DNA from: Roseburia hominis
Lineage (GTDB): Bacteria; Bacillota; Clostridia; Lachnospirales; Lachnospiraceae
Direction of reading: 5' to 3'
Assembly: GCA_040702975.1 (NCBI GenBank)
Contig: CP159990.1
Span: 1,054,001-1,118,000, forward strand
DNA length: 64,000 nt
The notes beneath the pieces are model-generated. The model did no database searches and was not told the origin of the DNA. It worked only from the letters and a program-made list of their open reading frames with translations. Shown here piece after piece: positions 10,875 to 34,371 of the stretch. How positions within the stretch are numbered: position 1 is the first letter of the stretch; each line of letters opens with the position of its first letter. The translations under genes were made by a program, and so were the position numbers.

Positions 10875-10896
10875 GTTATACCTAATTCGTGATAAC

Positions 10897-11204: not shown

Positions 11205-11798
11205 ATGATAAGAAATAATTCCCTGTTTTGCAAGTTAATTCGTATAAAATCTTCATCAAAAAAGCTTTTTGACTCCTTCATGGACGGTTTCCGGCCTGAA
11301 CTACAGACCTGCCCCTGTTGTGGGGCAAAGGGAGCTTGTTCCGTCCATGCCTATTATGAACGTTCCCTGGCTGATTTCGTTGGTGGAAAGCCTGTCTGGC
11401 ACAGCCTCTGTATCCTGCGCCTTGTCTGTTCCTGCGGCCATACCCATGCCATCCTTCCGGATTTCATCATCCCTTATTCCTCCTACGGCCTTTTCTTTAT
11501 CCTCCGTGTCCTGGCGGAATATTTCCTTCGGCTTGCTTCCGTAGAAAAAATCTGCGCACGCTTCTGTATTAACCAAAACCAGCTCTACCATTGGCTTTCC
11601 CTGTTCAAAAAGCAGAAGGAAGAGTGGCTGGGCCTTCTCTCTTCCAGGGAGTCCTCCGGCCTCTCTTTCCTGAAAGGCCTTTTTCGGATGCCCGCTTATT
11701 CCGGCTTTGCATCCGGTTTTGTCCGCCGCTTCTCTGTCTCCTTCCTCCAGTCCCACAGAAATCCGGCGGCTTACTGCCAACAGCAGTTCGGCCCCTGA
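11205..11798 (+). CDS. Zinc-ribbon HTH protein of the transposon (DUF6431-like)
   Basis: About 197 residues from ATG 11205. Shows C-P-C-C-G-A-K-G-A-C near residue 35 and a C-S-C-G-H-T-H-A-I-L-P pair near 70, a zinc ribbon followed by a helical region (V-E-K-I-C-A-R-F-C-I-N-Q-N-Q-L-Y-H-W-L) that looks like a helix-turn-helix. Such proteins accompany DDE/ATPase transposons in Clostridia and may bind the ends. The start is uncertain, since no clear ribosome site exists at 11205 or at ATG 11280; the frame stays open upstream to 11013. Confidence 0.55.
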   Translation: MIRNNSLFCKLIRIKSSSKKLFDSFMDGFRPELQTCPCCGAKGACSVHAYYERSLADFVGGKPVWHSLCILRLVCSCGHTHAILPDFIIPYSSYGLFFILRVLAEYFLRLASVEKICARFCINQNQLYHWLSLFKKQKEEWLGLLSSRESSGLSFLKGLFRMPAYSGFASGFVRRFSVSFLQSHRNPAAYCQQQFGP

Positions 11799-11887
11799 AC
11801 CGTTTCCCAGACACCACATAACACAGGGATGGTCTCCAGGCTGTTCTTCCTATATGCTGATAGAAAACAGTAAAGGAGGATTTTTTT

Positions 11888-13157: not shown

Positions 13158-13963
13158 TGTTCCGCACTTACTATGGGCTGGCCTTCAACCCTTTTGACAA
13201 ACAGATGGCCTCTGAGAAGGACCGTTTCCTCTCGAAAGACATCTCGGAGATGCTCTCACGGCTGGACTACCTCAAGGATACCAGGGGCATCGGGCTGTTC
13301 ACCGCACGCCCCGGCATGGGCAAGTCCTTCGCACTGCGCTGTTTTGCCAAAAGCCTGAACCCGAATCTTTACCACATGGAGTATCTCTGCCTCTCTACCG
13401 TCAGTGTCATGGAGTTCTACCGCCAGTTCTGTTCTACGCTTGGTATAGAACCCAAAGGCGGCAAACCCGGCATGTTCCGGGCGATCCAGGAGCAGGTCCT
13501 CTATCTCTACCGTGAAAAGAAGCAGCCCCTCCTCCTTGCCATCGATGAGGCACAGTATCTCTCTACCGGCATTCTGGAGGATATCAAGATGCTCATGAAT
13601 TACGGCTATGATTCCCTCAACTGCTTTACTCTCATACTCTGTGGGGAGCCCCATCTGAACAATACGCTCAAAAAGCCCGTCCATGAGGCACTGCGGCAGC
13701 GTGTTACCGTCCACTATAACTTCTCCGGGCTCTCCGATTCGGAAGTCGGGCAGTATGTCCTCCACAAGATCGCCTGTGCTGGCGGAGCTTCCTCCATTAT
13801 TGACCATGCAGCCCTGTGTGCTGTCCACAGCCACTCCCAGGGCAGTCCCAGGCTTGTTGATAACCTGATGACCAACGCGCTGACACTTGGGGCACAGATG
13901 GAAAAGAAGGTCATTGATACAGAGGTCATCCTGGCTTCCGTCAGCAGCCAGAACCTCGGCTAA
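13157..13963 (+). CDS. AAA+ ATPase of the transposon (TniB/ExeA-like)
   Basis: A 268-residue ATPase with Walker A T-A-R-P-G-M-G-K-S at about residues 49-57 and Walker B L-L-A-I-D-E-A-Q near 130. Such partners (TniB, IstB, TnsC, MuB) choose targets and activate the DDE transposase. Start overlaps the transposase stop, showing coupling. Intact, although the transposase is not. Confidence 0.8.
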   Translation: MFRTYYGLAFNPFDKQMASEKDRFLSKDISEMLSRLDYLKDTRGIGLFTARPGMGKSFALRCFAKSLNPNLYHMEYLCLSTVSVMEFYRQFCSTLGIEPKGGKPGMFRAIQEQVLYLYREKKQPLLLAIDEAQYLSTGILEDIKMLMNYGYDSLNCFTLILCGEPHLNNTLKKPVHEALRQRVTVHYNFSGLSDSEVGQYVLHKIACAGGASSIIDHAALCAVHSHSQGSPRLVDNLMTNALTLGAQMEKKVIDTEVILASVSSQNLG

Positions 13964-14558: not shown

Positions 14559-15584
14559 CTAATCTAATGAATACAGCAGTTTCTTTACATCATCCTTTTT
14601 CCAAAGTTTTTCCTCTTTATCCAATGTAGGCGCTGCTTTATTCATGGCATCTGACATCATCTCAAGAGTTGCAAATGCATAAAACCCTGAGGTAGTTGAC
14701 ATACTTTCATGTCCAAGCAGCTGCATTATAAATGGTAACGGAACACCATTCTTATATAAATCCATCGCCTTTGTTTTTCGAAACATATGGCAATGAACCC
14801 TTTCAGGAACAGCTTCACACGTTGCTCGGGCTTTATCTGCAGCTGTTTTTAAGACCAAACTTATGCTATCTGTTGATAATCTATGTGGCTTTCCGTCAAG
14901 TAAACTATAAAACAGAGGGAACTCATCCATTTCAGGATGATACTCTTTTAAATATTCATTCAGATGTTGAACCGTCTTATTCTGTAGTGGAACATTTCTG
15001 CTTTTTCTCCCTTTTCCAATAAGTGTAACAAACGGATTCTTTTCCCTTAAATGTAATGATGAGATATTCATATCCGCAAGCTCCTGAACTCGTGCACCAG
15101 TGTCATAAAGCATTATTAACAGCATTCTATTTCTACGATGCTTTGCCGTAGTTGTATCATAAGCAGCCAGTATTGCTGCTGTAGCTTCCGGTTGAAGATA
15201 AACTATTGGTTTTTTTTCTTCTTTTACTTTCTTTATAGAACAGACTTCTGTATATACCCCTCGGAGTTCAAAATCCTCTTCACTACTGTATTTGAAAAAT
15301 GATCTAATTGCTGTAAGCCGAAGATTTATTGTTTTTGCAGAGCAATTCTTCCCAGTAAGCCAGGCTATATATTTCTTGATATTGTCTCTTGTAAAAGAGT
15401 CAAAGTTCACTTTTTCATTTGCGATTCCTTTTTCTGATTCAAGGAACTCTAGATATACCTTAAGTGACTGCTTGTATGCTTCAACAGATTTATCAGAAAG
15501 ATTTCTTGTTACAGGCATGTAATCATGAAGATATCGTCTTGCAAGTAGCCAAAAATCAGCCGTTTTCTTTCGTTTATACTTCAT
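14559..15584 (-). CDS. Tyrosine recombinase, third gene of the RIT trio
   Basis: A 341-residue recombinase with a SAM-like N-terminal domain (residues 15-110) and catalytic residues Arg in D-T-G-A-R-V-Q-E-L, His-x-x-Arg in H-C-H-M-F-R-K, His in L-L-G-H-E-S and Tyr in S-G-F-Y-A-F. It overlaps the end of the second recombinase by 11 bases. Complete. Confidence 0.88.
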   Translation of the reverse strand: MKYKRKKTADFWLLARRYLHDYMPVTRNLSDKSVEAYKQSLKVYLEFLESEKGIANEKVNFDSFTRDNIKKYIAWLTGKNCSAKTINLRLTAIRSFFKYSSEEDFELRGVYTEVCSIKKVKEEKKPIVYLQPEATAAILAAYDTTTAKHRRNRMLLIMLYDTGARVQELADMNISSLHLREKNPFVTLIGKGRKSRNVPLQNKTVQHLNEYLKEYHPEMDEFPLFYSLLDGKPHRLSTDSISLVLKTAADKARATCEAVPERVHCHMFRKTKAMDLYKNGVPLPFIMQLLGHESMSTTSGFYAFATLEMMSDAMNKAAPTLDKEEKLWKKDDVKKLLYSLD

Positions 15585-16538
15585 AGATTTCCACCTCCGG
15601 TATTAATTCTTCAGTGGAAACAGTTAATTTCGCATACTTCGGAAAGAAGTCAGGAACCAAATGAATATAGTAGTAAGTACTGTCCAAAGTCGTGTGCCCC
15701 ATATATCTCATTAGATAAGGCAGCATTGCATGGATATCTTTTCCTTCATCTGACCATTTCATGATGTTTGCGCATGCAAAGTGATGTCTAAAATCATAGG
15801 CTCTAGGCTTTACTTTGCCATCACGCTTCAATCCTGCTGATAACCATATATTTCTAAAGTTTGCTGATAAAGCAGTCGTTGAGCATATCCCTCCAGCACC
15901 TCCTGGGAAAAAGTATTCCCTATCTGGGAAGCACTTACTTATAGCAGCATCATATCTTTTTAAATAATCTATTAACTCATCAGACAAGTACAAACGTCTG
16001 TCTCTATGCGCCTTGGATTGAAGGATATCAACATATCCGTCATCAAGATGAACCTCTGAACATTTAAGATTTCTAGCTTCTCTGCATCTTACTCCACAAC
16101 AATAAAGAAATCTGTATAAGGCTGGAAGAATGTATGGCCTGCCATTTGCTTTATAACGAAGTACAAAACGATCGCATTCTTCAAAAAAAGCTTGATTTCT
16201 TCTTCGCTAAGCAGGTAGACTTCGGCATGATATTTTTGAATCTTATATCTATCATCAAGTATGTATGCATCTTCATATCCAATGCTGCACAGATATCTTC
16301 CGAATTCCCTTATGGGAGAAATCCAGCTTCGGTCAGTAGTAATACTTTTTTCTGCCTGTTGATTGGCCCATCCTTCCGCGGTTTCTCGAGTAAGAACATC
16401 AACATTAGCGTGACACGCATTGTATTTATCCAGTTGTTCCAGGTAAAATCTGCCCGTATCATATTTAAAGCCCAATGCATGCTTAAACTCAAAGAAGTCT
16501 TCAATCAGTGGTTTTAGATTGCTTGTAAAATCATTCAT
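15574..16538 (-). pseudogene. Tyrosine recombinase, second gene of the RIT trio, frameshifted
   Basis: The start at 16538 follows AGGAGGTG. The N-terminal domain runs to E-E-E-I-K-L-F, then a run of seven T bases (A7 on the plus strand near 16184-16190) shifts the frame; adding one T restores F-F-E-E-C-D-R-F-V-L-R-Y-K and continues to the C-terminal part with R-A-Y-D-F-R-H-H-F and Y-M-G-H-T-T-L-D-S-T-Y-Y-Y. Joined length would be about 321 residues. Because RIT elements are thought to need all three proteins, this lesion probably fixes the element in place. Confidence 0.82.
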
Positions 16539-17733
16539 GGTACACCTCCTTGGATATACCATCCATAGAGAGAACACACCCCTTAAGCCGTTCTATGTCT
16601 GTTGTTATATAAATATCTGTTGTGTCAGGTGTTGCATGACCAAGTATTGCTGCAATCGTTTCAATGGGAACTTCATTTTTGACCATTGTGGAAGCTGCAT
16701 TATGTCTCAACATATGCATTCCAGACATTCTGTTATCTTTATTAATACCTGCAATTCTAAAAACTTTACTGACAACAGAATGACATGCAGCATGGTCGGC
16801 GAATGGCACATATGGAGCAAAGGATCTTAGGAATAAATAATGACTATCTACCCTAGGTCTTTCTTCTGTGATGTATTTAAAAAGCGCATTGCCTACTCGT
16901 TCAGTAAGTGGAAGACAAACAACATTTCCTGTTTTACTTTGTTTGAACTGTATTGTTTCATTATTCCAGCCTATATCAGACAACTGCAGCTTTATCAAGT
17001 CGCCAGCGCGAATACCGCACGATAGACCAACTATAACGATAGCTGCATCTCTTAATGATATATTTCTTTCAGCAATACAATCATATATTTTCTGCAATTC
17101 AGTATCGGAAAGCACTGGAAGTATCTTTTTAATCCGGGGAGCATGTATTCCTGCAATAGCATTGTATAAATCAAGTCTCGCTAAGTATCGAAAAATACCT
17201 CTCAGTTCGCATAGCATCTCACGTTGGCGGCTTGTTTTGGTCGCTTTTATGTATTCCATGATTAATACTGGTGACAACTGTTCAATATCGGTTATTCTTT
17301 TACTATTTAAAAACTGTAAAAGACAGTACATTCCATACTCATAAAAATGCCTTGTGTTAGCATTATCATAGATCCTCAAAAGATAATCCTGATATTCTAT
17401 ATAAATCTTCTGATGGTTCTCATTGTCTGGAACAATTCGTCCTTTCTTCATAAGTGAAAAATCAAATGTTCCAGTAGAAAAGTATGAATCAATTAAACGA
17501 TAAAATCTTCCCTGTGTATGGTAGCGGTTGTTACTGAACTTGCCAGTTTTCTTGCTGATTACATCATCTGCATAAGCCTTACCTATTTCACTGCTATACA
17601 AGGAAACATCTCGCTCTTCACAGAACTGCTTGAATCGTCGTATCACCCCTTCATAATTAAATATGGTTGATTCGTTGTACCCCTCTACACGTAATGCATT
17701 TATACATGCAGAACAAACATCATCAATTGTCAT
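16531..17733 (-). CDS. Tyrosine recombinase, first gene of the RIT trio
   Basis: A 400-residue recombinase, intact, with Arg in S-C-G-I-R-A-G-D-L, H-M-L-R-H-N-A-A, and I-L-G-H-A-T-P-D-T-T-D-I-Y containing the Tyr nucleophile. Its long N-terminal region (about 190 residues) has the arm-binding layout. It starts near the right inverted repeat and overlaps the second gene by eight bases. An AGGAGG precedes the start. Confidence 0.88.
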   Translation of the reverse strand: MTIDDVCSACINALRVEGYNESTIFNYEGVIRRFKQFCEERDVSLYSSEIGKAYADDVISKKTGKFSNNRYHTQGRFYRLIDSYFSTGTFDFSLMKKGRIVPDNENHQKIYIEYQDYLLRIYDNANTRHFYEYGMYCLLQFLNSKRITDIEQLSPVLIMEYIKATKTSRQREMLCELRGIFRYLARLDLYNAIAGIHAPRIKKILPVLSDTELQKIYDCIAERNISLRDAAIVIVGLSCGIRAGDLIKLQLSDIGWNNETIQFKQSKTGNVVCLPLTERVGNALFKYITEERPRVDSHYLFLRSFAPYVPFADHAACHSVVSKVFRIAGINKDNRMSGMHMLRHNAASTMVKNEVPIETIAAILGHATPDTTDIYITTDIERLKGCVLSMDGISKEVYHE

Positions 17734-19851: not shown

Positions 19852-19921
19852 TTAATTTAAATTCCGCAGAACAATAAAATGCCGAAAATAAATTAAATAA
19901 AATGAAATCGAGGTGGAAAAG

Positions 19922-20509
19922 ATGGCAGGTACAGCAGTTCTTCCTGAAGATCAGAAGATCTTTTCCATGCAGGAGCTTAAGAGCAGAGGCTTCTCACAGT
20001 ATAAGGTCAGTAAGCTGGTCAGCGAAGGAAAGCTTATAAAACTGAATAAGAGCTATTACGAGAACGCAGAGTATCGTGGAGAGGAATCAGACTTTTATTA
20101 TGCAGAGGCCTATGCGCCGAAAGGCGTAATCTGTCTGCTCAGTGCAGCAGTCTATTATCATCTGACGACATTCATTCCGGATGCAGTTGATGTTGCCATT
20201 CCGAGGAAGGCAAAGATATCTACTATGCCGGATTGGCCGCAGATGAATGTCCATCATTATACAGATGACAGACATGAGATGGGAGTCACAACGGTCAAGG
20301 AAGGTAAGAATGAGTTCCAGATCTACGATATGGAAAAGACTGTCGTGGATATCGTGTTTTACAGAGAGAAGGTTGGGATAGAAGAAACCAAGGAAATCCT
20401 TGTGACCTATCTGCAACGGAAGGATCGGAATCTGAACCGGCTTCTGAAATATGCAGAACGGATGAAATGCGATAAAGTGATGAGACAATATCTGGAGGTG
20501 CTCATATGA
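19922..20509 (+). CDS. AbiEi-family antitoxin, second copy
   Basis: A 195-residue protein with winged-helix start (F-S-M-Q-E-L-K-S-R-G-F-S-Q-Y-K-V) and the AbiEi domain end (Y-D-M-E-K-T-V-V-D-I-V, L-L-K-Y-A-E-R-M). ATG 19922 is preceded by GAGGTGG. The stop overlaps the toxin start (ATGA at 20506). It differs strongly from the copy at 6537, so they are separate acquisitions. The antitoxin is intact while its toxin is frameshifted. Confidence 0.85.
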   Translation: MAGTAVLPEDQKIFSMQELKSRGFSQYKVSKLVSEGKLIKLNKSYYENAEYRGEESDFYYAEAYAPKGVICLLSAAVYYHLTTFIPDAVDVAIPRKAKISTMPDWPQMNVHHYTDDRHEMGVTTVKEGKNEFQIYDMEKTVVDIVFYREKVGIEETKEILVTYLQRKDRNLNRLLKYAERMKCDKVMRQYLEVLI

Positions 20510-21389
20510 TAAGTGCGATATCAGTAAAAGACAGACTGAAGAATCAGGCTGTTGCAAACGGAAAGACGTTTCAGGAAGCACTGACGGCGTATGGGTTGGA
20601 AAGAACCGTATACAGACTGTCGGTGTCAGAATATGTGGAGCGTTTTACTCTGAAGGGCGGTATATTCCTGTATGCTCTTTTTGAAGGTGAATTTGCAAGA
20701 GCACAAGAGACATTGATCTTCTGGCAAGAAACATGCCGAATAATGTGGAGGATATGAAGAAAGTATTTGAAAACATATTCTCCATCGAGTGCGATGATGC
20801 TTTGCGGTATGACTTGGGCACGCTGAATGTAAAGGATATAACAGAATTCAAGGAATATCACGGCATAAGTGTGTCCATTATGGCATATTTGAACAGGACA
20901 AAAGTTCCGGTATCTATTGATATCGGGTTTGGTGACGTCGTTTATCCGGACAGAGTGAAGATGGATTTTCCGGTGCTGCTCGATATGGAAGTGCCCGAGA
21001 TTTATGCGTATTCGATCTCTTCGGTAATCTCTGAGAAGTTTGAAGCAATCGTTTCCTTGGGAGACGCCAACAGCAGATATAAAGACTTCTATGATATCTA
21101 CATACTTGCTGATAGGTATGATCTTGATGGAGGAGAACTGAAGGAAGCTGTCAAAGAAACTTTTGAACACAGAGGCACCGGATTCGATGATATATTTGCT
21201 TTCACGGATGATTTCATAACAAGCGAGATTCATCAAAGCAGGTGGAAGGCATTTTTGAAAAAGAAAAAGGCACTGGTGAAGGCAGAACTGGTTGATGTGG
21301 TAAATATGCTGCGAACATTACTGTTGCCGATTGTTGACAATATAACCGATGATCAGGAATATGCCGCAAAGTGGGAGCATGAATTCTGA
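20506..21389 (+). pseudogene. AbiEii-type nucleotidyltransferase toxin, frameshifted
   Basis: The first frame runs M-I-S-A-I-S-V-K-D-R-L-K to F-T-L-K-G-G-I-F-L-Y-A, then misreads. The second frame takes over at R-D-I-D-L-L-A-R-N-M and is open to 21389. Inserting one A near 20702 (GCA-ACA-AGA) gives A-T-R-D-I-D-L-L, the metal-binding motif of the nucleotidyltransferase, so the lesion hits the active site. An intact protein would have about 294 residues. The toxin modifies RNA or nucleotides in known relatives. Confidence 0.82.
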
Positions 21390-21649: not shown

Positions 21650-21894
21650 GATATATGATACCAAAAGCTGTATAGAAAAATATAAGGACGCATGATATAA
21701 TTAGTATTAACTTGGATAGATATACTATTGGATGTACGACAGACGATGTTATGGATATTATTCCCAAAGAAGGACAGTGTCTCTTATTAGTTCTGATTTA
21801 CGGAAATTATAATCAGAAAGAATGAGCTTAATGGATGATAAATCTATGATTGTTATAGATACAATTGAACTTAATCAATAAGGAGAGAAACAAA

Positions 21895-23334
21895 ATGGAT
21901 AAAGCTTATGATGCCGTTTTGCAGAGCGAGGTAGACGCTTCAGTTATCGCAAAATCCTCATATAGTTTTTTGAGGGATAGATTCCGCTACCAATGTCTGT
22001 GTTGTGGTGAAGAAGTCTATCTTGCTGCGGTTGATAGTAGTGAACGCTCTCCTCATTTTAGACATCGGAGAGGAAATAACGATACAGAATGTGAACGATA
22101 TCTTGGGCAACCAGGCGCAGTGGAACACTTTGCGCTCTTGAGAAAGCATAAACAGGAACATATAGAATTTTGTTTTAACAAAGATAGAAGGGTATTCGAG
22201 ATTTGTGCTTCTTTTGCGGAAGATGAACTTCGGGTGTATGAAGAAGAAAACAGCAGAATGACGGTATCTTCAAAATATTACGTCGAGCCATTCCTGTCTA
22301 TTCCTCTTAATAAAGGGGTATTCATTCCGGGCGGGAAAAGTTATTTTACTATTACAGAATTTTCAACGGAGTATTTTGTTTCCTTTAACTCCGGGATTAG
22401 TCGCTGTATCTATCAGGATGTAATGAGGGCCACAGAGAAAATCAATATATTCAGAGTCAGGATGCAGGATGAACACTGTAGGCATCAGACATCATCACTT
22501 CTTTATACAGATACCAAGTATATTGGTATATCTGAGAATGAAGAAGCTCTGCAGGAACTTGCATCTTTAGAATATGTTATTTCAGAAGAAGAGATGTTTT
22601 CTTTTACCACAGAAAACAGGATATTCTATGGATTGCAGTTTTATGTAAAAAGGGCAGAATTTTCTGTCCTGTGTTTCTTACAGAAGCACGATTATCAGAT
22701 TGAAACAGCGGAAGCGTTCAGCATTTTATGGCCACCGGTTTATACCAGAGATTCATATTCTATATGCGCCGGAGATACGGTATATGTACATTCAAGTTTT
22801 GAGCTGATTCCTCATGGAAATATGAATGCAGGTGGTATTTTTGTCAGGGAGATCAGCAGAAATGTGCTGGAACTTCACATTGATGATGAAGTCATCATAC
22901 ATGAAAAGAATATTGATATATGTATTCAGAGGGAAAGAAAACTGGGAAATGAAACAGTTCTGGAAGAACCGGTGACCACATATTCTGACAGATATACCGT
23001 TCCTGACCAGTACAATTACTTTCTGTTCGACCAGAACGGATGCACACGACTGAGTCCAGGCTCAAACGTATATCTTTCCGAAGCGGATCGGATTGTCGGA
23101 TATAAAAACGGACATCTAAAAGCATTCGTGTGTGCATGTCCGAAAGAAAAAACAGGTACCAGACAACTTATAGACGATATTCTGAAATATCATCCACAAT
23201 CGGAACCGTTTGAGCTGGATGATTTCATGGATATCATAACAGACGAAACAGTCTTATCGTACCTGGAAAACTGTTATAGGAGCGGGCGGATCAATACAGT
23301 CATTAAACGGTACATCAAGGAGGAACTGATTTGA
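21895..23334 (+). CDS. Zinc-ribbon protein, CoiA-like N-terminus, first gene of defence-like operon
   Basis: A 479-residue protein. Residues 30-75 show F-R-Y-Q-C-L-C-C-G-E-E-V, then S-P-H-F-R-H-R-R-G and a further Cys, the ribbon that opens CoiA-like proteins; E-H-F-A-L-L-R-K-H-K follows. The remaining 400 residues are beta-rich and match nothing I know. No nuclease motif is clear. AGGAGA precedes ATG 21895. Its stop overlaps the next start (TTGA at 23331), and all five genes run in one direction with overlaps, so they form one operon. Confidence 0.6.
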   Translation: MDKAYDAVLQSEVDASVIAKSSYSFLRDRFRYQCLCCGEEVYLAAVDSSERSPHFRHRRGNNDTECERYLGQPGAVEHFALLRKHKQEHIEFCFNKDRRVFEICASFAEDELRVYEEENSRMTVSSKYYVEPFLSIPLNKGVFIPGGKSYFTITEFSTEYFVSFNSGISRCIYQDVMRATEKINIFRVRMQDEHCRHQTSSLLYTDTKYIGISENEEALQELASLEYVISEEEMFSFTTENRIFYGLQFYVKRAEFSVLCFLQKHDYQIETAEAFSILWPPVYTRDSYSICAGDTVYVHSSFELIPHGNMNAGGIFVREISRNVLELHIDDEVIIHEKNIDICIQRERKLGNETVLEEPVTTYSDRYTVPDQYNYFLFDQNGCTRLSPGSNVYLSEADRIVGYKNGHLKAFVCACPKEKTGTRQLIDDILKYHPQSEPFELDDFMDIITDETVLSYLENCYRSGRINTVIKRYIKEELI

Positions 23335-25241
23335 ATTACTTGATAGAACTTACAAAAGAAGAAATTAAGTATGTATGTACTGTTATTCCGTTTAAGGAGG
23401 CATCTGCGTACTTCAAAAGGTATCCGAAAGAGTTCAACAAATTAAGACCGGGATTCCGTGTAAAGTCGTTGGACGAGGATACCATCGTCCGGATACTTTA
23501 TGACTTCCGAAACAGGGATTTTATCGCTTCTTTTCTGAACAAGCATATTGACCGATGGATTAAAGAAATTGATAAAGAAATAGCAAAAGCGTGTGAGAAT
23601 GGGCTTGATCAAGAGGCGGTCTATATTGATGTGTTGTCACGTTCTTTTTTTTCGAAAAACGTTGCGCTGTTCTTCAAAATCAAAGGGGAAGAAAAGACGG
23701 AAGATTATCTGAAGGTCATGGGCTCATCTGTTTTCTATCAGTCTGCTCATCAAAAAACAGATGAAGAAGAATTGGATTTATTAAAGAAAAGGCAACTGGA
23801 GCTTACTGGTATTCAGGAAGAGTTAAAGAACCGAATTTCTAATGAAAAGAAGGAAGTAGAAAGACTGAGAAAAAAGGAAACAGAGCTGAAAATCGAACTA
23901 AAGGAAAAAATAAAACAGCTCGAGCTAGAGCAGGAAAAGAGCTCTTGTCTTTCCGAAAAAGCGGATAAACTGGAAGCAGAGCTTAAAAAAAATCAGGATG
24001 ATGAGGTATGGAAGATTGCGGAGATGCAACAGAAGATTGACACCCTTACCTCCAGACTTAAGGATCAGACCCAAAAGGCAGCAGGATACGAGTCCAGCCT
24101 CTCAGAATATGTATCTAGACTTTCTTCCGCCAAGGAGGACATCGCGACATGGAAAAATATGGTAAGAAGTCGTGAGAAACAGCTTTTTACATATAAAGCG
24201 GAAAGAGCATCGTTTTTAACAGAGCAAGAATCTAACCGGAAGCAGATTAGAGAACTTAAGGAAGCACTTGATAAAGCACTTGGTGTTGAAAAAGTATATA
24301 AAGAATGTCTTTCTGCGCTTAGTACAGAAAAAGAATCCTATCTGCAGAAGAACAGGGAGCTGGAAGATACATTGGAAGTGCAGAAAAATATTGAGACTGC
24401 AGCAGAAGCTGTTTCAAAAAGATATGCAAATTCTGACCGGAAGATGCCGTTATGTCCAGAAGATATAAATGATTTTGATGAATATTTCAGACATAACCTT
24501 GAAAATATTGGATTCGACGAGAACGAAGATGGTTCATCAGATTTTGTAGATTATCTTGAAAAGAGTTTTTTTCATGGTATTCCGGTGCTGATTAAAAGAG
24601 GAGCGGGAATCAATTTGGCCAACTGTTTGGCAAACACGATTTATGGTGTGCCGTTTGCAGCTAATCTGCTGTATTCGGAAGGTGCAGGCGTACAAAAGAT
24701 AAAAGAGTTTCTTGCAGATACTCCTGATAGGGTCGTCTGCATTGACGGCTTTATTGGGAATTGTAATGAAATGGAATTAATCCCGGTGCTTGAACAGTAT
24801 CGTAACAAGATTATTATTCTTACTTACATGTATGACCAGACACTGAGATTTGTTCCGTACGAAATTCTTTCTTCAGTTCATTTTATCAGTGCAGATATAT
24901 TTAGTTCGATATTAAGAATCAGGGATATTACGGAGAACCCTTCCGAAGTAAAAGAAATCACGTCTGCATACAGAAGCAATGCAGGAGCTGACAGTCGGTC
25001 ACAGAAGATATTCTATGAGATCGCATGCGAATGTGGATTAGGAAAGGATACAGCATGTGCGATGGTTGACATGATCGAAGATGAACACCATTTGAACGAA
25101 ATGCTGATGTTCACGCTTCTTCCATATGTGTCCAAAGTTCTCGGGAAGAATCCTTACAACTGCTCCAAACGTCTTCAGCGGTATGCTGGGGAGACAGGGC
25201 GTTGTTCGAAGAAAGATATTTTGATGAGGTGGTTTGGATAG
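23331..25241 (+). CDS. Coiled-coil protein with degenerate P-loop-like C-terminal domain
   Basis: A 636-residue protein starting at TTG 23331, seven bases after AAGGAGG. Residues 1-140 are a helical domain; 145-370 are a continuous Glu/Lys/Leu coiled coil; 380-636 look like an ATPase fold: a segment I-P-V-L-I-K-R-G-A-G-I-N-L-A where a Walker A would be but without Gly-Lys-Ser/Thr, and R-V-V-C-I-D-G-F resembling Walker B. It may bind but probably not hydrolyse ATP. A structural or sensing part of the operon is inferred. Confidence 0.55.
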   Translation: MNYLIELTKEEIKYVCTVIPFKEASAYFKRYPKEFNKLRPGFRVKSLDEDTIVRILYDFRNRDFIASFLNKHIDRWIKEIDKEIAKACENGLDQEAVYIDVLSRSFFSKNVALFFKIKGEEKTEDYLKVMGSSVFYQSAHQKTDEEELDLLKKRQLELTGIQEELKNRISNEKKEVERLRKKETELKIELKEKIKQLELEQEKSSCLSEKADKLEAELKKNQDDEVWKIAEMQQKIDTLTSRLKDQTQKAAGYESSLSEYVSRLSSAKEDIATWKNMVRSREKQLFTYKAERASFLTEQESNRKQIRELKEALDKALGVEKVYKECLSALSTEKESYLQKNRELEDTLEVQKNIETAAEAVSKRYANSDRKMPLCPEDINDFDEYFRHNLENIGFDENEDGSSDFVDYLEKSFFHGIPVLIKRGAGINLANCLANTIYGVPFAANLLYSEGAGVQKIKEFLADTPDRVVCIDGFIGNCNEMELIPVLEQYRNKIIILTYMYDQTLRFVPYEILSSVHFISADIFSSILRIRDITENPSEVKEITSAYRSNAGADSRSQKIFYEIACECGLGKDTACAMVDMIEDEHHLNEMLMFTLLPYVSKVLGKNPYNCSKRLQRYAGETGRCSKKDILMRWFG

Positions 25242-26257
25242 TGAATGAATTGATCAATATCATGGCAGATGACATGAATATACGCCCTTATACAAACGAA
25301 CCGGCTGAATCCTTTGGGTACAGAGTCATTTATTCAGCACTCGGTCTGTGGTGCCTTAAATCAGCACTCAGTGAAAAGGAAAACAAGAAGGGAATTAGTA
25401 AGAGCGCACAGAGCATCTTGCTGCATGACTTGTCTAAAAAATATATTGAGCTGTGTCCGATGGCAAAAGATTTTGTGTTTGCACCAAGAAATACTGATAT
25501 CGCTGTGTTTATCCGGAATATCTATGAACAGACAGGATATCTGCTGACTCTTGATAATAATTACAATGTTCTGAATAATAGTGGGGAAACAGTAAGAATC
25601 TCTGATACAGATTATTTATACTTTGGACTGCCAGCAACATGCTATATTGTAAACGGGCTTGGAATCCACTGCAGAAGCGGCAAACATGAAGTAAAACTAA
25701 ATGATTTTCTCATACGTGACAGTTTGACACCGGAAGAATACTTAAAAGTAAAATATGACGAGTGTGATTTTGATGAGCGGGATATCGATGTGAAGGAGCT
25801 GGAGTTTTTCAACCCGTTTTATTATGGAAATATATCTAGCTCGTGGCATGGACACATGAAATCCAATATGACGATGGCACGGAAAAGTACGATGGGACCA
25901 TATTATAGAGTTATTAGAAAAGAGAACGGCACGCTTCTTTACGCTGATGATAACAGCATGGATGAGCTTGACGCCCTAACGGGAGCAGAATTCCGACGGT
26001 TATATGTTGCTCTTAAGCAGCACTACGACAATCCGATGCAGCTTCTCATATGTCCGATAGATGAGAAATATTCCTATATTCGCATCCTTGGACAACTGCC
26101 GAATAGAGAATACTTTTATCTGCTTATGAATGCATGGCCAAGATATGCTTTTTCCGATCGGAACAATTTTATCATACGAAACGAATTGACGGAACAGACT
26201 GCAGAAGTCCTTGGAGCGATAGGATTTACTGCAAGAAATGGTGAATTTTATGGATAG
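25241..26257 (+). CDS. Unknown protein of the defence-like operon
   Basis: A 338-residue protein from GTG 25241, which overlaps the TAG of the previous gene; GAGGTGG lies before it. I recognise no family. It has an N-terminal helical half and a mixed second half with conserved-looking N-P-F-Y-Y-G and W-P-R-Y-A-F segments. Its end overlaps the helicase start by 20 bases. An upstream start at 25202 is possible but has no ribosome site. Confidence 0.55.
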
Positions 26258-29200
26258 AAACATGAACGGAGTACAGCAGTACTACCAGGTAATAAGGAAC
26301 CGCTTGGTAAACTATATCAAGTCAGATTATCTTGCCAACAGTGAAACATTGCTTCTATATGCAGATGAGATTCTCGGAGAGATGTGTCCGGAAGATATTA
26401 ACATTGCAAGGGAACCGTACATCGAGACATCCTCTTCCTACCGTAAGGTAAATGATGGTATCCGTACAGCTGATATTGAGGATAATGTTAAGGAAGTTCT
26501 TTTAAAGCTTGTTGATGCAAAGCTCGGCATTTATTCCACTCCCTTTGCCCATCAGGTAAAGGCTCTTACAAGTGCATTGAAGGGGAAAGACCTGTTTGTA
26601 TCTACCGGTACAGGCTCCGGTAAGACAGAGTGTTTTCTTTGGCCGATCATTGCGCGTGCTATCGAGGAATCTCTAAATAGACCGGAAGATTTTAAAAAGC
26701 CGGCTGTAAGAACTCTTATCATTTATCCTATGAATGCACTAGTATCTGACCAGCTTGCCAGGTTCCGTAAGATTATGGGTTCAGAAGAGTTTATGGATAT
26801 CTTTATATCTTCCTCGGGTGCAGGACGTATCCCACATTTTGGTATGTATACTGGAAGAACCCCGTATTCAGGAGAATCAAAGAAACAGAGTAATATCAAA
26901 CTCGCAGAGACATATCGTGAACAGTATCTTGTGGATGAGTGCGCAACGGAAAACGAACGGAAAGAACAGTTAAGAAAGATAAACGGACTTAAGATCATCA
27001 ATAAATATCCTGCGAGATACGGCGGAGATGAAGGGTTGAAGGATTTTGTCGACAATCTTGAGAACAGCATTCATAAGCCAGGTCCTTATGATGCAGAATA
27101 TATCACTAGATTTGAGATTCAGGCAAATACCCCGGATATCCTGATTACTAACTATTCCATGCTTGAGTACATGCTCATGCGTCAGATGGAGGCAGGTATA
27201 TGGGATGATACGAAAGAATGGCTGAATAAATCAGAGGGAAACAGACTCCTCATCGTCCTTGATGAGGCTCATATGTACAGAGGTTCCGCAGGCGGAGAAA
27301 TTGCGCTCCTTCTTGACAGGCTCTTTTCACGTCTTGATATTTCTCTTAAGAAAGTACAGTTTATTCTTACGACCGCAAGTATGCCAACGGAAGACGAAGA
27401 GGCTATTTCTGACTTCTTTAATGGGCTTACTGGAAAGAAATATTCCGAATGTGTTCCTCTTTTTGGTGACAAGGAAAATGTCCGTACTGACTTTAAGGTA
27501 ATGACGGATGCTGCGGCTCTTGCTGCAATCGGAACGAGCCAGGTAACGGAGGCAGAGATTAGCGCAAGAGTCTGCGTTTTTGCACAAAATGTGTTCCAGA
27601 TTAAGCTGCCTTTTGATATTTCCGTATCAGATGCACAGGAATGGCTGTTTGAAAATCTTCCAGATTATCAGGCATTCATGAAGCTTCATGAATTGTGCAG
27701 GGACGGTGCAAAATCCTATACAGAATTAAAAGAGAAGATATTTGGAAACAGTGAGTATGCAGCAGATGCCCTTGACGCATTGCTCGTTATTGTATCCCTC
27801 GCAAAAAAGAATGGTGAGATTCTTTTTCCTGTTAGACTACATATGTTTGTCCGCGGGATCCAGGGATTATATGCCTGTTCCAATCCAAAGTGTACCTGTG
27901 GGGCGAAATATTCTGATGAGGAAAAGCTTCCTCTTGGTAAGGTGATTTCCATTCCGCGTGAAAAGTGCGGATGTGGTGGCAGGATATATGAGCTTGTAAA
28001 CCATATCAAATGTGGAGCGCTGTATTTTAAGGTATATGTCCAAAAGATATCTGGGACAGGATACTGGTATGTGTTTCCGAATAAAGGGCTAAGTGGTGGA
28101 GCGAATGACCTGACGGAGATGCTTCTTTACATTTGTCCGGATGGATATGAGCTGAAAAGTAAAGATAAAGCGGGATATCTCGACCCTGTAACAGGAAAAC
28201 TTTATCTTGACTACCAAAATGACGATGGACTACTTAAAGTTCTCTATCCGGAATATGATGAAAAACATAATCGTTTTATGTTTGGTACATGCCCGAAATG
28301 CAAAAAGATTATGCCATTAAAGAAGCCTACGGATCTGGCAACAAAAGGTAACATCCCTTTCTATAACCTGACCAAAGCACAGTTTGAGCTTCAACCGGCA
28401 AGGTCGGAACTCATTAACGAAGGCAAGAAGGTGCTTCTGTTCTCAGATTCCAGACAAAATGCGGCAAAGCTTGCACTTGACCTGTCCAAATCATCCGATG
28501 CGGATGGGTTCCGTCAGGCTGTCATGTTGGCTGCAAAGAAACTTTTGACAGACGGAAGAGAACATTCACTAAAAGAACTCTATAACGCGTTCCTTGCGGT
28601 CTGCGTGGAGCAGAGACTGGAATTCTTCTCAGGCGGAAGCGCGGATATCTTTCATGATCATCTTGAGAAGACTCGTAAAAAACTTAGAAAACGTAAGGAT
28701 ATTTCAAAGGAAAATTTTGAACCGCTGCCATATGACTATTACGAACAGCTGTTAAACTTCTTTACAGAGAGTCCACGTTCGTTCAAGGATATCGGTCTCG
28801 GTTTCCTCGGGCCTATGGACGGAGCTCTAGAAGACTGTGCTTATGAGCTTGAGGATGATTATGACATTGTAATCGATGAAGAAATGCTTCGTTCCATCTT
28901 AGTCTTGCTTTTCTGGGATGTCATGGACGGAAGTGCGGCTCTTGGTAATGCTATTGAGGATGATGTCAGAAGAAACCTTCCGGGACGAAGTAAGATTCAG
29001 TCCTTTGGTCTTGGCGGAGATTTCGTTGCTTCTGTTGATAAAAAGTTCATTCGGATTGTAAAAGATATGACTGGGCTTAATGATAGAAAGATGGGAGAAC
29101 TTCTGAACTGCATAAAGAGCAATTTCTTTGGACCGGGGACAAATCAGCGGTATTACCTTAAACTTGATGCGGTAAAGATTGTCATTACGGATAAGAATTT

Positions 29201-31433
29201 CGACTGGTATCGATGTGAGAGATGCGGAAAAATTTCTCCTTACAAGCTTGGTGATTACTGCGGTTCCTGTTTTGAATCCAGAAATCTCCATGTCATCACC
29301 AATGTGGACTTTTCCAGATTTGATTTTTGGAGAAAACCTATACTTGCAGCCATTGATGGCGAAGAAAAAATTCACACCATTGATACTGAGGAACATACCG
29401 CGCAACTCTCCCATAAGGAAACAACGAGCGACATCTTAAGCAGAACCGAGGACTATGAGATTCGCTTCCAGGATATTGATGTCGGCGAGTTTGGTGAGAA
29501 TTCCATCGACGTATTAAGCTGTACTACTACAATGGAGGTTGGTATTGATATTGGTTCTCTGACAGCAGTAGGATTGCGAAACATTCCTCCTATGCGTGAG
29601 AACTACCAGCAGAGAGCAGGCCGTGCTGGTCGAAAGAATTCTGGCATTTCCACCATCGTTGCCTATGCTTTCGGAGGTGTCCATGACAGCCACTACTTTA
29701 AGCATCCAGATGAGATGATCTCCGGAGAACCTAGAAAACCATGGATCGATAGGGGCAATCCGAAGATTGAACAGCGTCATTACAATATGAAAGCGTTAAA
29801 CAGCTTTATGTCGACAGAACCTATGCGCAGCAAGTTTGACAGTATTGTCGATGTTGGCATTGTAACATTCTGTGAGAAATATGCAGATGCTTTTATCGAA
29901 CATGTACAGTCACTTGATTTTCCGACAGACAGCACGGTTGAGATGTTCTGCAAGATAAGGGACATGGTGCTTTCAGAAGGCAAGAGAAATGAGTATTTCA
30001 ACGGGGACAAAGAAACGTCATCATTTGATGTATTCTATTCCGAAGGATATATTCCTTCCTATTCCTTCCCAAAGAATGTTGTAAGATTCTGCGTGGAAAA
30101 GGATTCCGAATATGGAAGGAGAGTTCCTAAGGACGTTAAATATGCTCCTGAAAGAGACATTGCTGTTGCCATCAGTGAATATGCCCCAGGGCGTTTCATT
30201 ACCATTGACAAGAAGATATACAAGAGTGGTGGACTATATTCAAATCCGAGACCAAAGGGATATGAGCATAATCAGGCGGAATACTATTTTACGAGTAAGG
30301 ATTACAAGAAAGACATTATTGTCTGTACGGAATGCAACTGGTTCGGTGATGGGCAGGGAGAATATACGGAATGCCCTTATTGCCATGCACCGGTAGAGAG
30401 GCATTCAATGATTAAGCCGTGGGGATTTGCTCCGGTTAAGGGCGATCCGGTTAAGTATGAAGATGAAGAAGAAGAGAAGACATATGCGGAAGCTCCATAT
30501 TATTCCTATGTTCCGAAAGATACGGAGATGCAGAATTATAAGCACAGTCACATCCGCTTCGCAAATCTTCAGAACCGCAAAGTACTGACCGTCAATATGG
30601 GAAAGAGAAAAAAAGGATTTAATATCTGTACTAAATGCGGTGGAGCAGAGGTAGCGGAACCGTTTCAGACAAGTGATTTCCGATTCTCTCAGCCTTACCA
30701 TGACCGTAATCTCTGCAGACATGAAGGTACAGTTGCAACAAATATTTATCTCGGATACGAATTCCTGACGGATATGTTTATGTTAGATATTAGATATGAC
30801 AATCAGAAGTTAGTATCAAATTATGACAGTGAGGAAAAGAATATTCTCCGTTCTGCTGCAACGACCTTACATGAGGCAATCAAAAGGGCGGTGTCTCTTT
30901 CGCTGGATATTGATTACAATGAAATTAACGGTGGATGGAGAACACGTTTTGAGGAAAATGGTGAGGTACATATCGAGATGTTCTTCTATGACAATTTGGC
31001 TAGTGGTGCCGGCTATTCTTCCCTTATCGGAGAGGACGGAGTGCTGGATGATGTCCTTTCAAGAGCAAAAGAAATTTTGACTGGATGCACCTGTTCGAGG
31101 TCATGCAGAAACTGCCTTGATAATTTTTATAACCAGAGAAACCATGACATCTTTGACAGAACGCTGGGTGCACAGCTCCTCGAATATGCTCTGGATAGAA
31201 AATATCCGGAAGATTATTCAGAAGAAGAGCAGGAAATTTATCTGGCGCCTCTGAAGAAACTGATCAGAGAGTCAAAAGGTATGTCTGCAAAAGATAATAT
31301 TGCATTTGAAGTTATTCCCTCATTAAGAAAGCGGGAAAGAAATGAAAAAGGTAAGCTGTATCTGAACTTATACAATTTATCAGACTGGCTTCCAAATACC
31401 TTCATGGAGTATCTGGGAAAAATCAATGAATAA
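26238..31433 (+). CDS. Large DEAH-box helicase with DUF1998 C-terminus (DruE/DrmA-DrmB-like)
   Basis: A 1731-residue protein. Walker [10 protein letters not shown] near residue 122, D-E-A-H near 341, the T-T-A-S motif near 375, and the second RecA domain with T-M-E-V-G-I-D-I-G and Q-R-A-G-R-A-G-R near 1120. Cysteine pairs, probably zinc sites, lie near 546-590, 686, 992-1010 and 1364-1386. The C-terminus has [11 protein letters not shown] (about 1615), typical of DUF1998. Such fused helicases occur as DruE of Druantia and, split, as DrmA/DrmB of DISARM. It is the core of the operon; the start codon is uncertain by a few codons. Confidence 0.85.
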
Positions 31434-31451
31434 GCAAAGGAGGTGAGATAT

Positions 31452-32336
31452 ATGTTCTATTCCCCATTGAGATATCCTGGTGGAAAAGGTAAATTGGCTG
31501 AATTTATGAAGTACATGATTGAGCATCTTGGACATAATGGAGGAACATATATCGAGCCTTTTGCTGGCGGGGCAGGCATTGCAATTGAACTCCTCCTTCG
31601 AGGTGTTGTCAGTAGGATAGTCATCAACGACTATGATAAAGGAATCTGGTCTTTTTGGAAAGCTGTCCTTACTGAGACTGATCGGTTTATAGCGGAACTT
31701 GCAGTTGTTCCCATTACTGTGGAAGAATGGAACCGACAGCGCGATATCTGTCTCATGCGAAACGATAAATACAGCTTTGAACTTGGCTTTGCAACATTTT
31801 ATATGAATCGCACAAACCGTTCTGGTATTATCAAGGGCGGTGTGATTGGTGGGATGGATCAGTCTGGATCATGGAAGATGGATGCGCGTTTCAATAGAGA
31901 AGAGTTAATCCGAAGGATAGAGAGTATCGCTGAGAGAAAATCAGATATAAAGCTTTACAACAAGGATATTAATAGTTTTATTACACGATACATCCCTCTA
32001 TATGAGGAAAATACACTTGTATATTTTGATCCTCCGTATTTTAAGAAGGGGAAACAACTTTATATGAATTACTTCCAATTAGAAGATCATGTTCGTATTG
32101 AGAGAGCGATAAGAGACCATGTAAAATGTGACTGGATTATTACCTATGATGATGCGCCGGAAATAGAAGAGATCTACAGGGATTATTCGATGTGTTTGTA
32201 TGATTTGAATTATAGCGTGTCTTCCAAGTGCAAAGCAAGTGAACTTATGATATTCAAAGAAGGGATAGAAGTTCCATATGATGAGGAACTTCAGAAGCAA
32301 AGGATAAAGATTAACATCCGACTATACAAGACATAA
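31452..32336 (+). CDS. Dam-type DNA adenine-N6 methyltransferase (D12 class)
   Basis: A 294-residue enzyme: L-R-Y-P-G-G-K-G-K-L (residues 5-14), the SAM-binding E-P-F-A-G-G-A-G-I-A near 35, and the catalytic D-P-P-Y near 198. ATG 31452 follows AAGGAGG, 18 bases after the helicase stop. It closes the five-gene operon. Methylation of host DNA could mark self in a restriction-like system, as in DISARM class 1 or BREX, but no endonuclease is evident among the neighbours. Confidence 0.85.
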   Translation: MFYSPLRYPGGKGKLAEFMKYMIEHLGHNGGTYIEPFAGGAGIAIELLLRGVVSRIVINDYDKGIWSFWKAVLTETDRFIAELAVVPITVEEWNRQRDICLMRNDKYSFELGFATFYMNRTNRSGIIKGGVIGGMDQSGSWKMDARFNREELIRRIESIAERKSDIKLYNKDINSFITRYIPLYEENTLVYFDPPYFKKGKQLYMNYFQLEDHVRIERAIRDHVKCDWIITYDDAPEIEEIYRDYSMCLYDLNYSVSSKCKASELMIFKEGIEVPYDEELQKQRIKINIRLYKT

Positions 32337-32402: not shown

Positions 32403-32477
32403 TATTGATTTTTTATAGAAGCCATTTGCAGTTGCCTGCGGTTCACAGGTATTGATCTGTGTTCTACTGCATAAAGT

Positions 32478-32510
32478 AACCAGACTGAGAAACTCAGCCT
32501 GGTTATTTTT
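32478..32510 (+). terminator. Operon terminator, also the intron insertion point
   Basis: AACCAG-A-CTGAG, loop AAA, CTCAG-C-CTGGTT, then ATTTTTA. A classical intrinsic terminator for the defence-like operon; the group II intron begins a few bases after the T-run. Confidence 0.8.
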
Positions 32511-32515
32511 AGTTT

Positions 32516-34371
32516 GCGCGCCATGGGCGCGCTCTAACGGGTGCAAGTCCCGAACATGCCCAGGTAGTGGGAAATGTATAGCTGAACAGCAAGGGTGTTC
32601 ATCGTGAGGTGGAATCTGAAGGAAGCTGTAAGCAAACCTCTGGTCCGACGGACAGAAATCACATATAAGGCTAGGTTACGAGAGATGAGTTGGCTAAATA
32701 CGACGAAGTCTAATAACTACCACTTTTGTAGTAACAGAGTAAATGTGGCGGATATATGGAGGGAAAGAGCGTGCACCTTAAGCGTGGAGGTCTCACAGAG
32801 GTTTCATTAGCCTAGTAACAACGAACTGTGAGAAGTCAGCCGAACCCATAGTAGTGAAGAAGTCTCTGTAATGGAGATGGAGCAAAGGGGTGAACAATCA
32901 ATAAGTTTGAGTAGGTCTCGTATTGCAGAAATGACAACATCTGCCGTAACCAGTCGGGTAAAAGGTGGTCAAATCAAGCGAGACGGAAAGGAAAGAACGC
33001 ATGGACACAAGTAGTCTAATGGAGCAGATTTTATCTAATGATAACCTCAATAGAGCATATCTGCAAGTCGTACGAAACAAAGGTGCAGAGGGAGTGGACG
33101 GAATGAAGTACACAGAACTCAAAGAACATCTTGTAAAGAACGGCAAAACCATCAAAGAACAGTTGAGGACAAGAAAATATAAACCTCAACCAGTACGAAG
33201 AGTGGAGATACCAAAACCTGATGGCGGTGTCAGAAAACTAGGAGTACCAACAGTAACAGACAGATTTGTACAACAAGCTATTGCACAGGTATTAGCACCA
33301 ATCTATGAGGGACAGTTCCATGAGCATAGTTATGGTTTTAGACCTAATAGGTGTGCACAGCAAGCAATTCTAACAGCACTTGACATGATGAATGATGGTA
33401 ACGATTGGATTGTAGACATAGACTTGGAAAAGTTCTTTGACACAGTAAATCATGACAAGCTAATGACTTTAATTGGGAGAACAATAAAGGACGGAGACGT
33501 CATCTCTATTGTAAGAAAGTACCTTGTTAGTGGAATTATGATAGATGATGAATACGAGGATTCTGTTGTGGGAACACCACAAGGCGGAAATCTATCTCCA
33601 TTGTTAGCAAACATCATGCTGAATGAACTTGACAAGGAAATGGAGAAACGAGGGCTAAAATTTGTACGATACGCAGATGACTGCATCATTATGGTCGGAA
33701 GTAAGATGTCTGCAAACCGAGTAATGAGAAATATAACTCGATTTATTGAGGAGAAACTAGGACTTAAGGTCAACATGACCAAGAGCAAAGTAGATAGACC
33801 AAGAGGGCTTAAGTACCTTGGTTTCGGATTCTACTTCGACTCAAGAGCACATCAGTTCAAGGCAAAACCGCATGCAAAATCAGTCGCGAAATTCAAGAAA
33901 CGGATGAAAGAACTCACGTGCCGTAGTTGGGGCGTTAGTAATAGTTACAAAGTAGAGAAACTTAACCAACTCATCAGAGGATGGGTAAACTACTTCAAGA
34001 TAGGTAGTATGAAAAGCCTTTGCGCAAAACTTGACGCAAACATTCGCTACAGACTACGCATGTGTATATGGAAACATTGGAAAACACCACAAAATCGTGC
34101 AAAGAATTTGATGAAACTTGGAATTGACAGAGTTACAGCATATAAAGTTGGCTATTGTTCAAGAGCCTACGCACATGTATGTAGTTGTGGTGCTGTAAAT
34201 ATAGCAATAACAAACAAGAGGCTAACCTCATTTGGATTAGTCTCAATGCTAGATTACTACACCGAAAGGTGTGTTACTTGTTAAGTTGATTGAACCGCCG
34301 TGTACCGAACGGTACGCACGGTGGTGTGAGAGGTCGGAATTTCTCATTTAGAGAAATTCCTCCTACTCGAT
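32516..34371 (+). mobile_element. Group II intron, class C type
   Basis: Begins near GCGCGCC at 32516, five bases past a terminator T-run, the known target of class C introns. It contains about 480 bases of structured 5' RNA, a reverse transcriptase gene, domain V (34294-34325, stem ACCGCCGTGTACCG with a GAAC-type loop) and a domain VI stem (GGAATTTCTC with GAGAAATTCC at 34336-34360), ending near CCTACTCGAT. Exact ends are uncertain by a few bases. No lesions seen. Confidence 0.82.
33001..34284 (+). CDS. ltrA: Group II intron reverse transcriptase/maturase
   Basis: A 427-residue protein after GGAAAGGAAAG. Reverse transcriptase blocks are visible: L-N-R-A-Y-L-Q-V, G-V-D-G, F-D-T-V-N-H-D, G-T-P-Q-G-G-N-L-S-P-L and the catalytic Y-A-D-D. 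The X/maturase domain follows (G-W-V-N-Y-F-K). No H-N-H endonuclease domain is present, which fits class C introns that prime from replication forks. The end, F-G-L-V-S-M-L-D-Y-Y, is typical of this subgroup. Confidence 0.92.
   Translation: MDTSSLMEQILSNDNLNRAYLQVVRNKGAEGVDGMKYTELKEHLVKNGKTIKEQLRTRKYKPQPVRRVEIPKPDGGVRKLGVPTVTDRFVQQAIAQVLAPIYEGQFHEHSYGFRPNRCAQQAILTALDMMNDGNDWIVDIDLEKFFDTVNHDKLMTLIGRTIKDGDVISIVRKYLVSGIMIDDEYEDSVVGTPQGGNLSPLLANIMLNELDKEMEKRGLKFVRYADDCIIMVGSKMSANRVMRNITRFIEEKLGLKVNMTKSKVDRPRGLKYLGFGFYFDSRAHQFKAKPHAKSVAKFKKRMKELTCRSWGVSNSYKVEKLNQLIRGWVNYFKIGSMKSLCAKLDANIRYRLRMCIWKHWKTPQNRAKNLMKLGIDRVTAYKVGYCSRAYAHVCSCGAVNIAITNKRLTSFGLVSMLDYYTERCVTC

Follow-up and report, generated by a model that had tools for sequence, protein, structure and literature searches.

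Druantia type I (DruABCDE) is the described defence system closest to the operon presented here, which was found in a window, i.e. the whole stretch of DNA analysed, of 64,000 nucleotides from Roseburia hominis. Both have DruB, DruD and DruE, homologous over their full length, in the same B-C-D-E order, and gene 2 corresponds to DruC in position and in similar predicted layout. The operon differs in that no DruA was found in the genome carrying the window, in that an adenine methylase lies behind druE, and in that gene 2 cannot be aligned to canonical DruC by sequence above chance. In Druantia type II (DruMFGE), a single operon likewise encodes both DruE and a DNA methylase, DruM being a cytosine methylase; however, DruF and DruG were unmatched here, and gene 4 scored 1942 bits with DruE1 versus 619 bits with DruE2. 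PD-Lambda-5 is related through gene 5, which belongs to the PD-Lambda-5_B family, but no PD-Lambda-5_A was present among the five genes or among the matches listed for seven neighbouring ORFs.

DISARM (DrmAB plus DrmMI/DrmMII) shares with the operon a YprA-family helicase, DUF1998 and a DNA methylase. In contrast to DISARM, in which DrmA and DrmB are separate, helicase and DUF1998 form a single 1731-aa gene here; moreover, only short DrmA matches near 1e-10 were obtained, the DrmC nuclease, usually present in DISARM, had no match among the five genes, and gene 5 encodes a D12-class (Dam-like) methylase. DrmAB is reported to be repressed by methylation, with no given sequence required (PMC9142583). 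ARMADA is reported to have a YprA-family helicase close to that of Druantia and a methylase in one operon (PMC12458937), as is the case here, but its BrxHII-like helicase and PglX-like methylase were unmatched among the five genes, and the BrxH models of PADLOC aligned with gene 4 only over a short part of its helicase region.

Gene content and assignment of the operon

Reading of the ORFs in the window confirmed the layout given in an earlier note on this DNA: five open, co-directional genes span positions 21895–32336 of the + strand, with overlaps at gene pairs 1/2, 2/3 and 3/4 and a spacing of 9 bp between genes 4 and 5 (Table 1). The terminator that the note had placed after the operon was recovered as a terminator-like hairpin with a run of T residues behind it. 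The ATG start of gene 1 is preceded by the Shine-Dalgarno-like AAGGAGAG, and a promoter-like candidate was located in a region in which such sites occur at chance level (35 found versus 35.6 expected).

Table 1. Features of the operon and its surroundings, in window positions.
Feature	Position	Strand	Basis
Tyrosine recombinase	14559..15584	-	
Tyrosine recombinase	16531..17733	-	
Promoter-like candidate, TAGAAA-17-TATAAT, TG ahead of second hexamer	21673..21701	+	10/12 matches
Gene 1, DruB, 479 aa, N-terminal Cys/His motif, zinc ribbon-like	21895..23334	+	PADLOC DruB1
Gene 2, proposed DruC equivalent, 636 aa	23331..25241	+	position and predicted layout
Gene 3, DruD, 351 aa	25202..26257	+	PADLOC DruD1
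Gene 4, DruE, 1731 aa, SF2 helicase with MZB (DUF1998)	26238..31433	+	PADLOC DruE1, Pfam
Gene 5, D12-class adenine-N6 DNA methyltransferase, PD-Lambda-5_B family, 297 aa	31443..32336	+	PADLOC, Pfam
Intrinsic terminator-like hairpin, then T run	about 32477..32511	+	sequence reading; scan gave inner 5-bp stem only
Group II intron with own reverse transcriptase	about 32598..34284		

Gene 1 matched PADLOC DruB1 (PDLC00003) with an E-value of 1.3e-106 over 1–477 of 477, as well as Pfam DUF7830 with 1.4e-4, which is under that family's cut-off; its Cys/His residues are mostly kept across 11 homologues. Gene 3 matched PADLOC DruD1 (PDLC00008) with an E-value of 2.9e-160 over 1–338 of 338 and, since most of its relatives comprise 338 aa, its true start may lie ~13 codons downstream. 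Gene 4 covered 3–1774 of 1776 of PADLOC DruE1 (E 0), contains the Pfam domains DEAD, Helicase_C and MZB, and has the motifs TGTGSGKT, DEAH and QQRAGRAGR all intact. Gene 5 matched PADLOC PD-Lambda-5_B (5e-116) and Pfam MethyltransfD12 (7.7e-18); among its homologues (n = 12), DPPY is invariant and FAGGAG is retained in most.

The earlier note had held that the operon fits no named defence system and suggested a new effector. The PADLOC search, which it had itself proposed as a check, instead places the operon in the existing Druantia type I model (B, D and E), with genes 1, 3 and 4 matched end to end, and the core already known from Druantia provides the effector. Self-marking, which the note had also proposed, is plausible. 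Its further statement that DruA to DruD are absent stands for DruA, which was not found in the genome, but not for DruB and DruD, which were matched full length; DruC is represented by position and similar predicted layout, without a sequence match. DrmC and DruH, also reported there as missing, indeed had no match among the PADLOC matches listed for the five genes, nor had DruF or DruG (25 of the 27 families being covered for gene 4). Overall, we assign the operon with high confidence to a branch of Druantia type I.

Gene 2 lacked a DruC sequence match (HMM E 1.4). Its predicted layout comprises a helical N-terminus, a coiled coil of ~195 residues and an AAA+-like C-terminal domain with a degenerate P-loop, which resembles that of canonical DruC upon comparison of the models by eye. 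The AAA+ structures 2r44, 6q7l, 6l8d and 1g8p were common to the structure-match lists of both proteins. Comparison with canonical DruC in hhalign gave 36.6% on the N-terminal part in a full-length run without shuffle control, and the domain-cut profile scores lay within what 40 column shuffles gave. The gene 2 alignments contained about 24 sequences, drawn from 120 listed of 188 matches. Based on its operon position and similar predicted fold, gene 2 is proposed as the DruC equivalent. Kinship with LmuB, JetC or SMC was rejected, since those matches fall mostly within the coiled coil.

Conservation of the gene unit and distribution of DruA

Bacillota loci of relatives were chosen by similarity to the window's DruD, the DruD alignment comprising 24 sequences (that of the window and 23 from 120 listed of 266 matches). 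The B-C-D-E order recurs in relatives up to phylum distance, and also where B, C and D are only about 22–42% identical to those of the window; that the order holds at such identity speaks against a chance arrangement. The 3' side was readable in 14 loci, the window included, which form one DruE clade with a support of 100/100. Only this inner clade of the DruE tree was used, as several long outer branches made false joins possible. Excluded from the count were L012, L015 and L020, whose contigs end inside druE; L037, with a shortened druD and a contig ending before any druE; and L023, for which the genome search yielded no DruE. L003 and L005 were taken as repeats of L010 and L016 and counted once. 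Two weak DruD matches (G365 and G180), which have a divergent DruE (about 35%), no PF14236 in their genomes and no adjoining methylase, entered the DruE tree solely as outer rows, and G197 was dropped, there being no Druantia neighbour at its locus.

In 11 of the 14 loci, the gene immediately after druE is a methylase of the gene 5 family, spaced from it by 0 to about 22 bp in ten loci and by 131 bp in one. L013 was included for methylase position and excluded from the methylase tree, owing to an in-frame stop. Of the remaining three loci, L021 and L022 have the methylase in the neighbourhood, elsewhere than behind druE; in L022 it lies beside a PD-Lambda-5_A. In the third, L014, BCDE is open and no methylase of this family adjoins it, the best match in its genome being 27% identical. 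This locus thus has no strict need of the methylase; other N6/N4 methylase matches of that genome (4 above the cut-off) may or may not stand in for it. Distances of B, C and D correlated with those of E at a Mantel r of 0.97–0.99, compared with 0.845 for the methylase. The conserved order and the recurrence of the methylase thus bear out the view of the five genes as a unit, against which the earlier note had set freely varying neighbours of the helicase; B, C and D do not vary in this way, and the methylase varies more.

DruA (PF14236, DUF4338) was found neither in the window's own genome (96.94% complete) nor in the other Bacillota genomes tried, with 0 of 19 genome entries in a first search and 0 of 8 in a second, 22 distinct genomes together. 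The second search provided the positive control, with a PF14236 match in all seven plasmid records with a DruE relative; the first gave no match anywhere. In these records, DruA occurs in the same stretch as the DruE relative in 7/7 and a methylase of the gene 5 family in 0/7. The DruA side of the comparison is drawn from plasmids only, with seven records out of the nine top-ranking ones among 167 matches. Further type I proteins were seen in only two of the seven. The sole record with A-B-C-D-E by PADLOC models is that from P. putida (L024), which is without a gene 5-type methylase. DruD adjoins an annotated DruA in L026, and a third protein in L025 is a weak DruD match. L079, L080, L081 and L082 are known by DruE relative and DruA alone, so their assignment to Druantia type I is not established.

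The methylase and its role

Outside Druantia, methylase relatives were represented by eight of nine matches from genomes lacking a DruD match, with G317 omitted as belonging to the genus of G279. Seven of the eight have an AAA_15/AAA_21 ATPase adjoining or one gene off, and some are accompanied by PD-Lambda-5_A-like proteins, which indicates that the family serves several modules. In the methylase tree, a single clade for ten operon methylases was rejected (p-AU 1.3e-4); methylases have thus moved into or out of the slot behind druE, apparently between defence systems, and the tree is compatible with either direction.

We consider it very likely that the methylase is a functional component of the system. 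Alternatively, it might be a passenger left over from, or neighbouring through, a PD-Lambda-5-like or restriction-modification module adjoining Druantia in defence islands. The occurrence of close relatives in other modules, the PD-Lambda-5_A retained beside the methylase in L022, and the open BCDE without methylase in L014 would fit this explanation. However, the slot directly 3' of druE recurs even though its methylases are not one clade, as would not be expected of a passenger, and the window's five genes have no PD-Lambda-5_A match, which renders the explanation improbable.

To a similar degree, we doubt that the operon works as a restriction-modification-like system in which DruB, DruC or DruD hides a sequence-specific nuclease, gene 5 is the cognate methylase and DruE the motor. 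Motor and methylase do share one operon, but PADLOC, Pfam and NCBIfam at E 0.001 recognised no nuclease family in the five proteins, and methylases only about 40% identical behind closely co-varying BCDE cores do not readily fit a single, closely matched site. Finally, we consider it very unlikely that the methylase, rather than marking self, is an effector component directed at incoming DNA or a regulator of the operon: gene 5 is the sole D12 gene (PF02086) found in its genome and solitary methylases can have other roles in principle, yet its family also occurs in modules resembling restriction systems and nothing was found that points to regulation.

Proposed mechanism and genomic setting

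We prefer, and regard as moderately probable, the explanation that the operon represents a Druantia type I branch of the Bacillota that has no recognisable DruA and ends with a PD-Lambda-5_B-type methylase gene, and in which methylation restrains DruE on self DNA. On DNA, DruB, DruC and DruD would form the complex that senses and gates. DruE would be an ATP-driven helicase engaging phage DNA, probably single-stranded or replicating, as proposed for its relatives, DrmAB and the DruE of type III. By methylating the host's DNA, gene 5 would keep DruE in check on self, and for the gating of self/non-self discrimination by methylation, taken separately, we lean slightly in favour. This model is borrowed from the DISARM helicase, a relative of DruE, whose ATPase is reportedly lowered by methylated DNA (PMC9142583). 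As the family searches returned no nuclease for any of the five proteins, interference probably consists of blocking or unwinding phage DNA, or proceeds via host nucleases.

A broader extension, which we find rather unlikely in view of the way the plasmid and Bacillota loci were sampled and of a methylase tree compatible with movement in either direction, is that the BCDE core is gated by N6-adenine methylation regardless of sequence. Methylases of the same family would then be an exchangeable password, swapped between lineages over a vertically inherited core and replacing the role of DruA.

The literature searched, with subscription papers outside its scope, yielded neither a description of a methylase-bearing Druantia type I nor an explanation of how type I spares the host, the mechanistic papers found treating type III. 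A branch in which no DruA was found and a methylase follows druE offers a direct handle, as a one-gene deletion would switch the methylation state. It also draws Druantia type I nearer to DISARM and ARMADA, both of which pair related helicases with methylases, and one methylase family is seen to be common to several defence modules.

DruD was also sought in viral contigs, where none was confirmed, and searches of plasmids and phages were likewise fruitless. Within the window, the two tyrosine recombinases and the group II intron near the operon (Table 1) fit the suggestion in the earlier note that it is carried by an island.

Assignment of the operon to Druantia type I

The five open reading frames (ORFs) were read on the plus strand, with neighbours overlapping or 9 bp apart, and a hairpin with a T run was found 3' of gene 5, confirming the positions, shared direction and terminator described in the earlier note. 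The motifs TGTGSGKT, DEAH and QQRAGRAGR of the gene 4 helicase are all intact, as are FAGGAG and DPPY of the gene 5 methylase. All five proteins were compared with the PADLOC models. Genes 1 and 3 matched DruB1 (1.3e-106) and DruD1 (2.9e-160) over their whole length, gene 4 matched DruE1 over nearly its whole length (1942 bits), and gene 5 matched the PD-Lambda-5_B/type II methylase kind (5e-116). The earlier view that the operon fits no named defence system was abandoned, as genes 1, 3 and 4 match Druantia I models; the supposed absence of DruA–D was wrong for DruB and DruD, given their full-length matches, and right for DruA, whose family model (PF14236) was not found in the window's own genome. 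Rather than an unnamed system, the operon is a clear Druantia I branch that carries a methylase and has no recognisable DruA. Since a distant relative of gene 1 (locus L036) scores 815 bits with the same DruB1 model, we infer from this score that the library already covers this Bacillota family under Druantia I. No description of a methylase-bearing Druantia I branch without DruA was found in the openly readable literature searched, which included the accessible text of PMC12458937, PMC8565338, PMC9519451, PMC9142583, PMC13316683 and PMC13192584.

Features of the window and of related loci
Feature	Stretch	Coordinates	Strand
Two tyrosine recombinases, possibly island integration genes	Window	14559-17733	-
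AbiEi/AbiEii pair, directly upstream of operon	Window	19913-21389	
83-residue ORF preceding AbiEii ORF	Window	20506-20757	
AbiEii ORF	Window	20733-21389	
Operon	Window	21895-32336	+
Group II intron with own reverse transcriptase, directly past operon terminator	Window	32598-34284	
PDC-S22, upstream of druB	L013	5016-5882	
DruC-position gene, split into two ORFs	L013	8130-10040	
Methylase with in-frame stop	L013	16242-17129	
91-residue ORF just upstream of druB	L017	6308-6583	
PDC-S41, upstream of druB	L023	4725-6710	
B-C-D; MFS transporter and M20 peptidase behind druD	L023 (Peptoniphilus)	6871-13825	

Model matches to the AbiEii ORF begin only at about position 50–80, and the 83-residue ORF may be its missing front in another frame.

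Recurrence of the unit and search for DruA

Collection starting from DruD yielded 19 distinct loci, window included, from hosts ranging from Lachnospiraceae and Sarcina to genome G760, with the phylum alone in common. The 3' side of druE was readable in 14 (window, L010, L011, L013, L014, L016, L017, L018, L019, L021, L022, L027, L028 and L036; about 600 bases only in L021). The methylase directly follows druE in 11 of the 14, with a gap of 131 bp in L019 and of 0 to about 22 bp in the other ten, and B–D co-vary with E. In L021 and L022 the methylase lies on the upstream side of druB, and no gene 5-type methylase was found at L014, a BCDE locus.

PF14236 was found in none of 19 genome handles, including the window's own genome, in a first search that gave no match anywhere, and in none of eight genomes in a second, which was positive in 7/7 plasmid records with a DruE relative. 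Together, the searches covered 22 distinct genomes, 19 with the window's kind of DruD. DruE matches occurred in 167 plasmid records, of which seven were opened; each of these seven stretches carries DruA and none a gene 5-type methylase, and further type I proteins were shown only in L024 (A-B-C-D-E) and L026 (A, D, E).

Several loci deviate in detail. ORFs of the same length as that in L017, which had no PADLOC match, precede druB in L011 and L018. The DruC-position gene and methylase of L013 look as if they had decayed together, or may reflect assembly errors. DruE was not found in the L023 genome. The PDC-S22 and PDC-S41 proteins are candidate defence proteins; therefore, L013 and L023 likewise lie in defence islands. 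Two loci with divergent DruE (about 35%; L029 and L030) come from two genomes of the same order; PF14236 was not found in either genome, and no gene 5-type methylase adjoins druE at these loci.

Evolution of core and methylase

A 22-row DruE tree groups the 14 readable loci into a single clade with support 100/100: the methylase directly follows druE in 11 of them, is nearby in two and is missing from one. The six DruA-linked rows fall outside this clade; the tree's outer branches are long, and no use was made of the order in which they join. Across 12 loci, pairwise identities correlated with those of DruE at Mantel r of 0.974 (B), 0.981 (C) and 0.991 (D), and more weakly for the methylase (0.845); 0/2000 permutations gave an r as high as any of these. 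DruE conservation exceeds that of B and C in 66/66 pairs, of D in 64/66 and of the methylase in 54/66. In a 20-row methylase tree, eight rows being relatives from genomes without a match in the DruD search, a single clade for ten operon methylases was rejected (p-AU 1.3e-4). Because of this rejection and the close co-variation of the core, the sequences indicate that methylases moved into or out of the slot behind druE, whereas the core genes remained linked; the tree favours neither direction of movement.

Proposed role of the methylase

According to the accessible text of PMC9142583, unmethylated DNA stimulates the ATPase of DISARM DrmAB and methylated DNA reduces it, and a lack of methylation sites enhances targeting. 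By analogy with this reduction, host DNA methylation by gene 5 would keep DruBCDE in check on the cell's own DNA. Closely co-varying cores are followed by methylases of about 40% identity, which favours sensing that would be independent of any single recognition sequence, unless the operon methylases all have one site in common. L014 speaks against a strict need for the methylase, with its weight qualified by a distant D12 gene and other N6/N4 methylase matches in its genome. In the available parts of the respective papers, type III DruE is proposed as a helicase-nuclease effector with DruH as likely sensor (PMC13192584), and a predicted inactivated C-terminal Vsr domain is reported for type I DruE (PMC12458937); no nuclease motif was seen by eye in the last ~100 DruE residues of the window's branch.

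Outside Druantia, seven of eight methylase relatives (L071–L077, the seven whose neighbours were scanned against families; the eighth is L078) have an AAA_15/AAA_21 (OLD/PtuA/GajA-like) ATPase adjoining or one gene off, possibly making these seven a family of methylase-ATPase defence modules. PD-Lambda-5_A-like proteins were found by model match in L073 and by BLAST only, partly weakly, in L074, L076 and L078.
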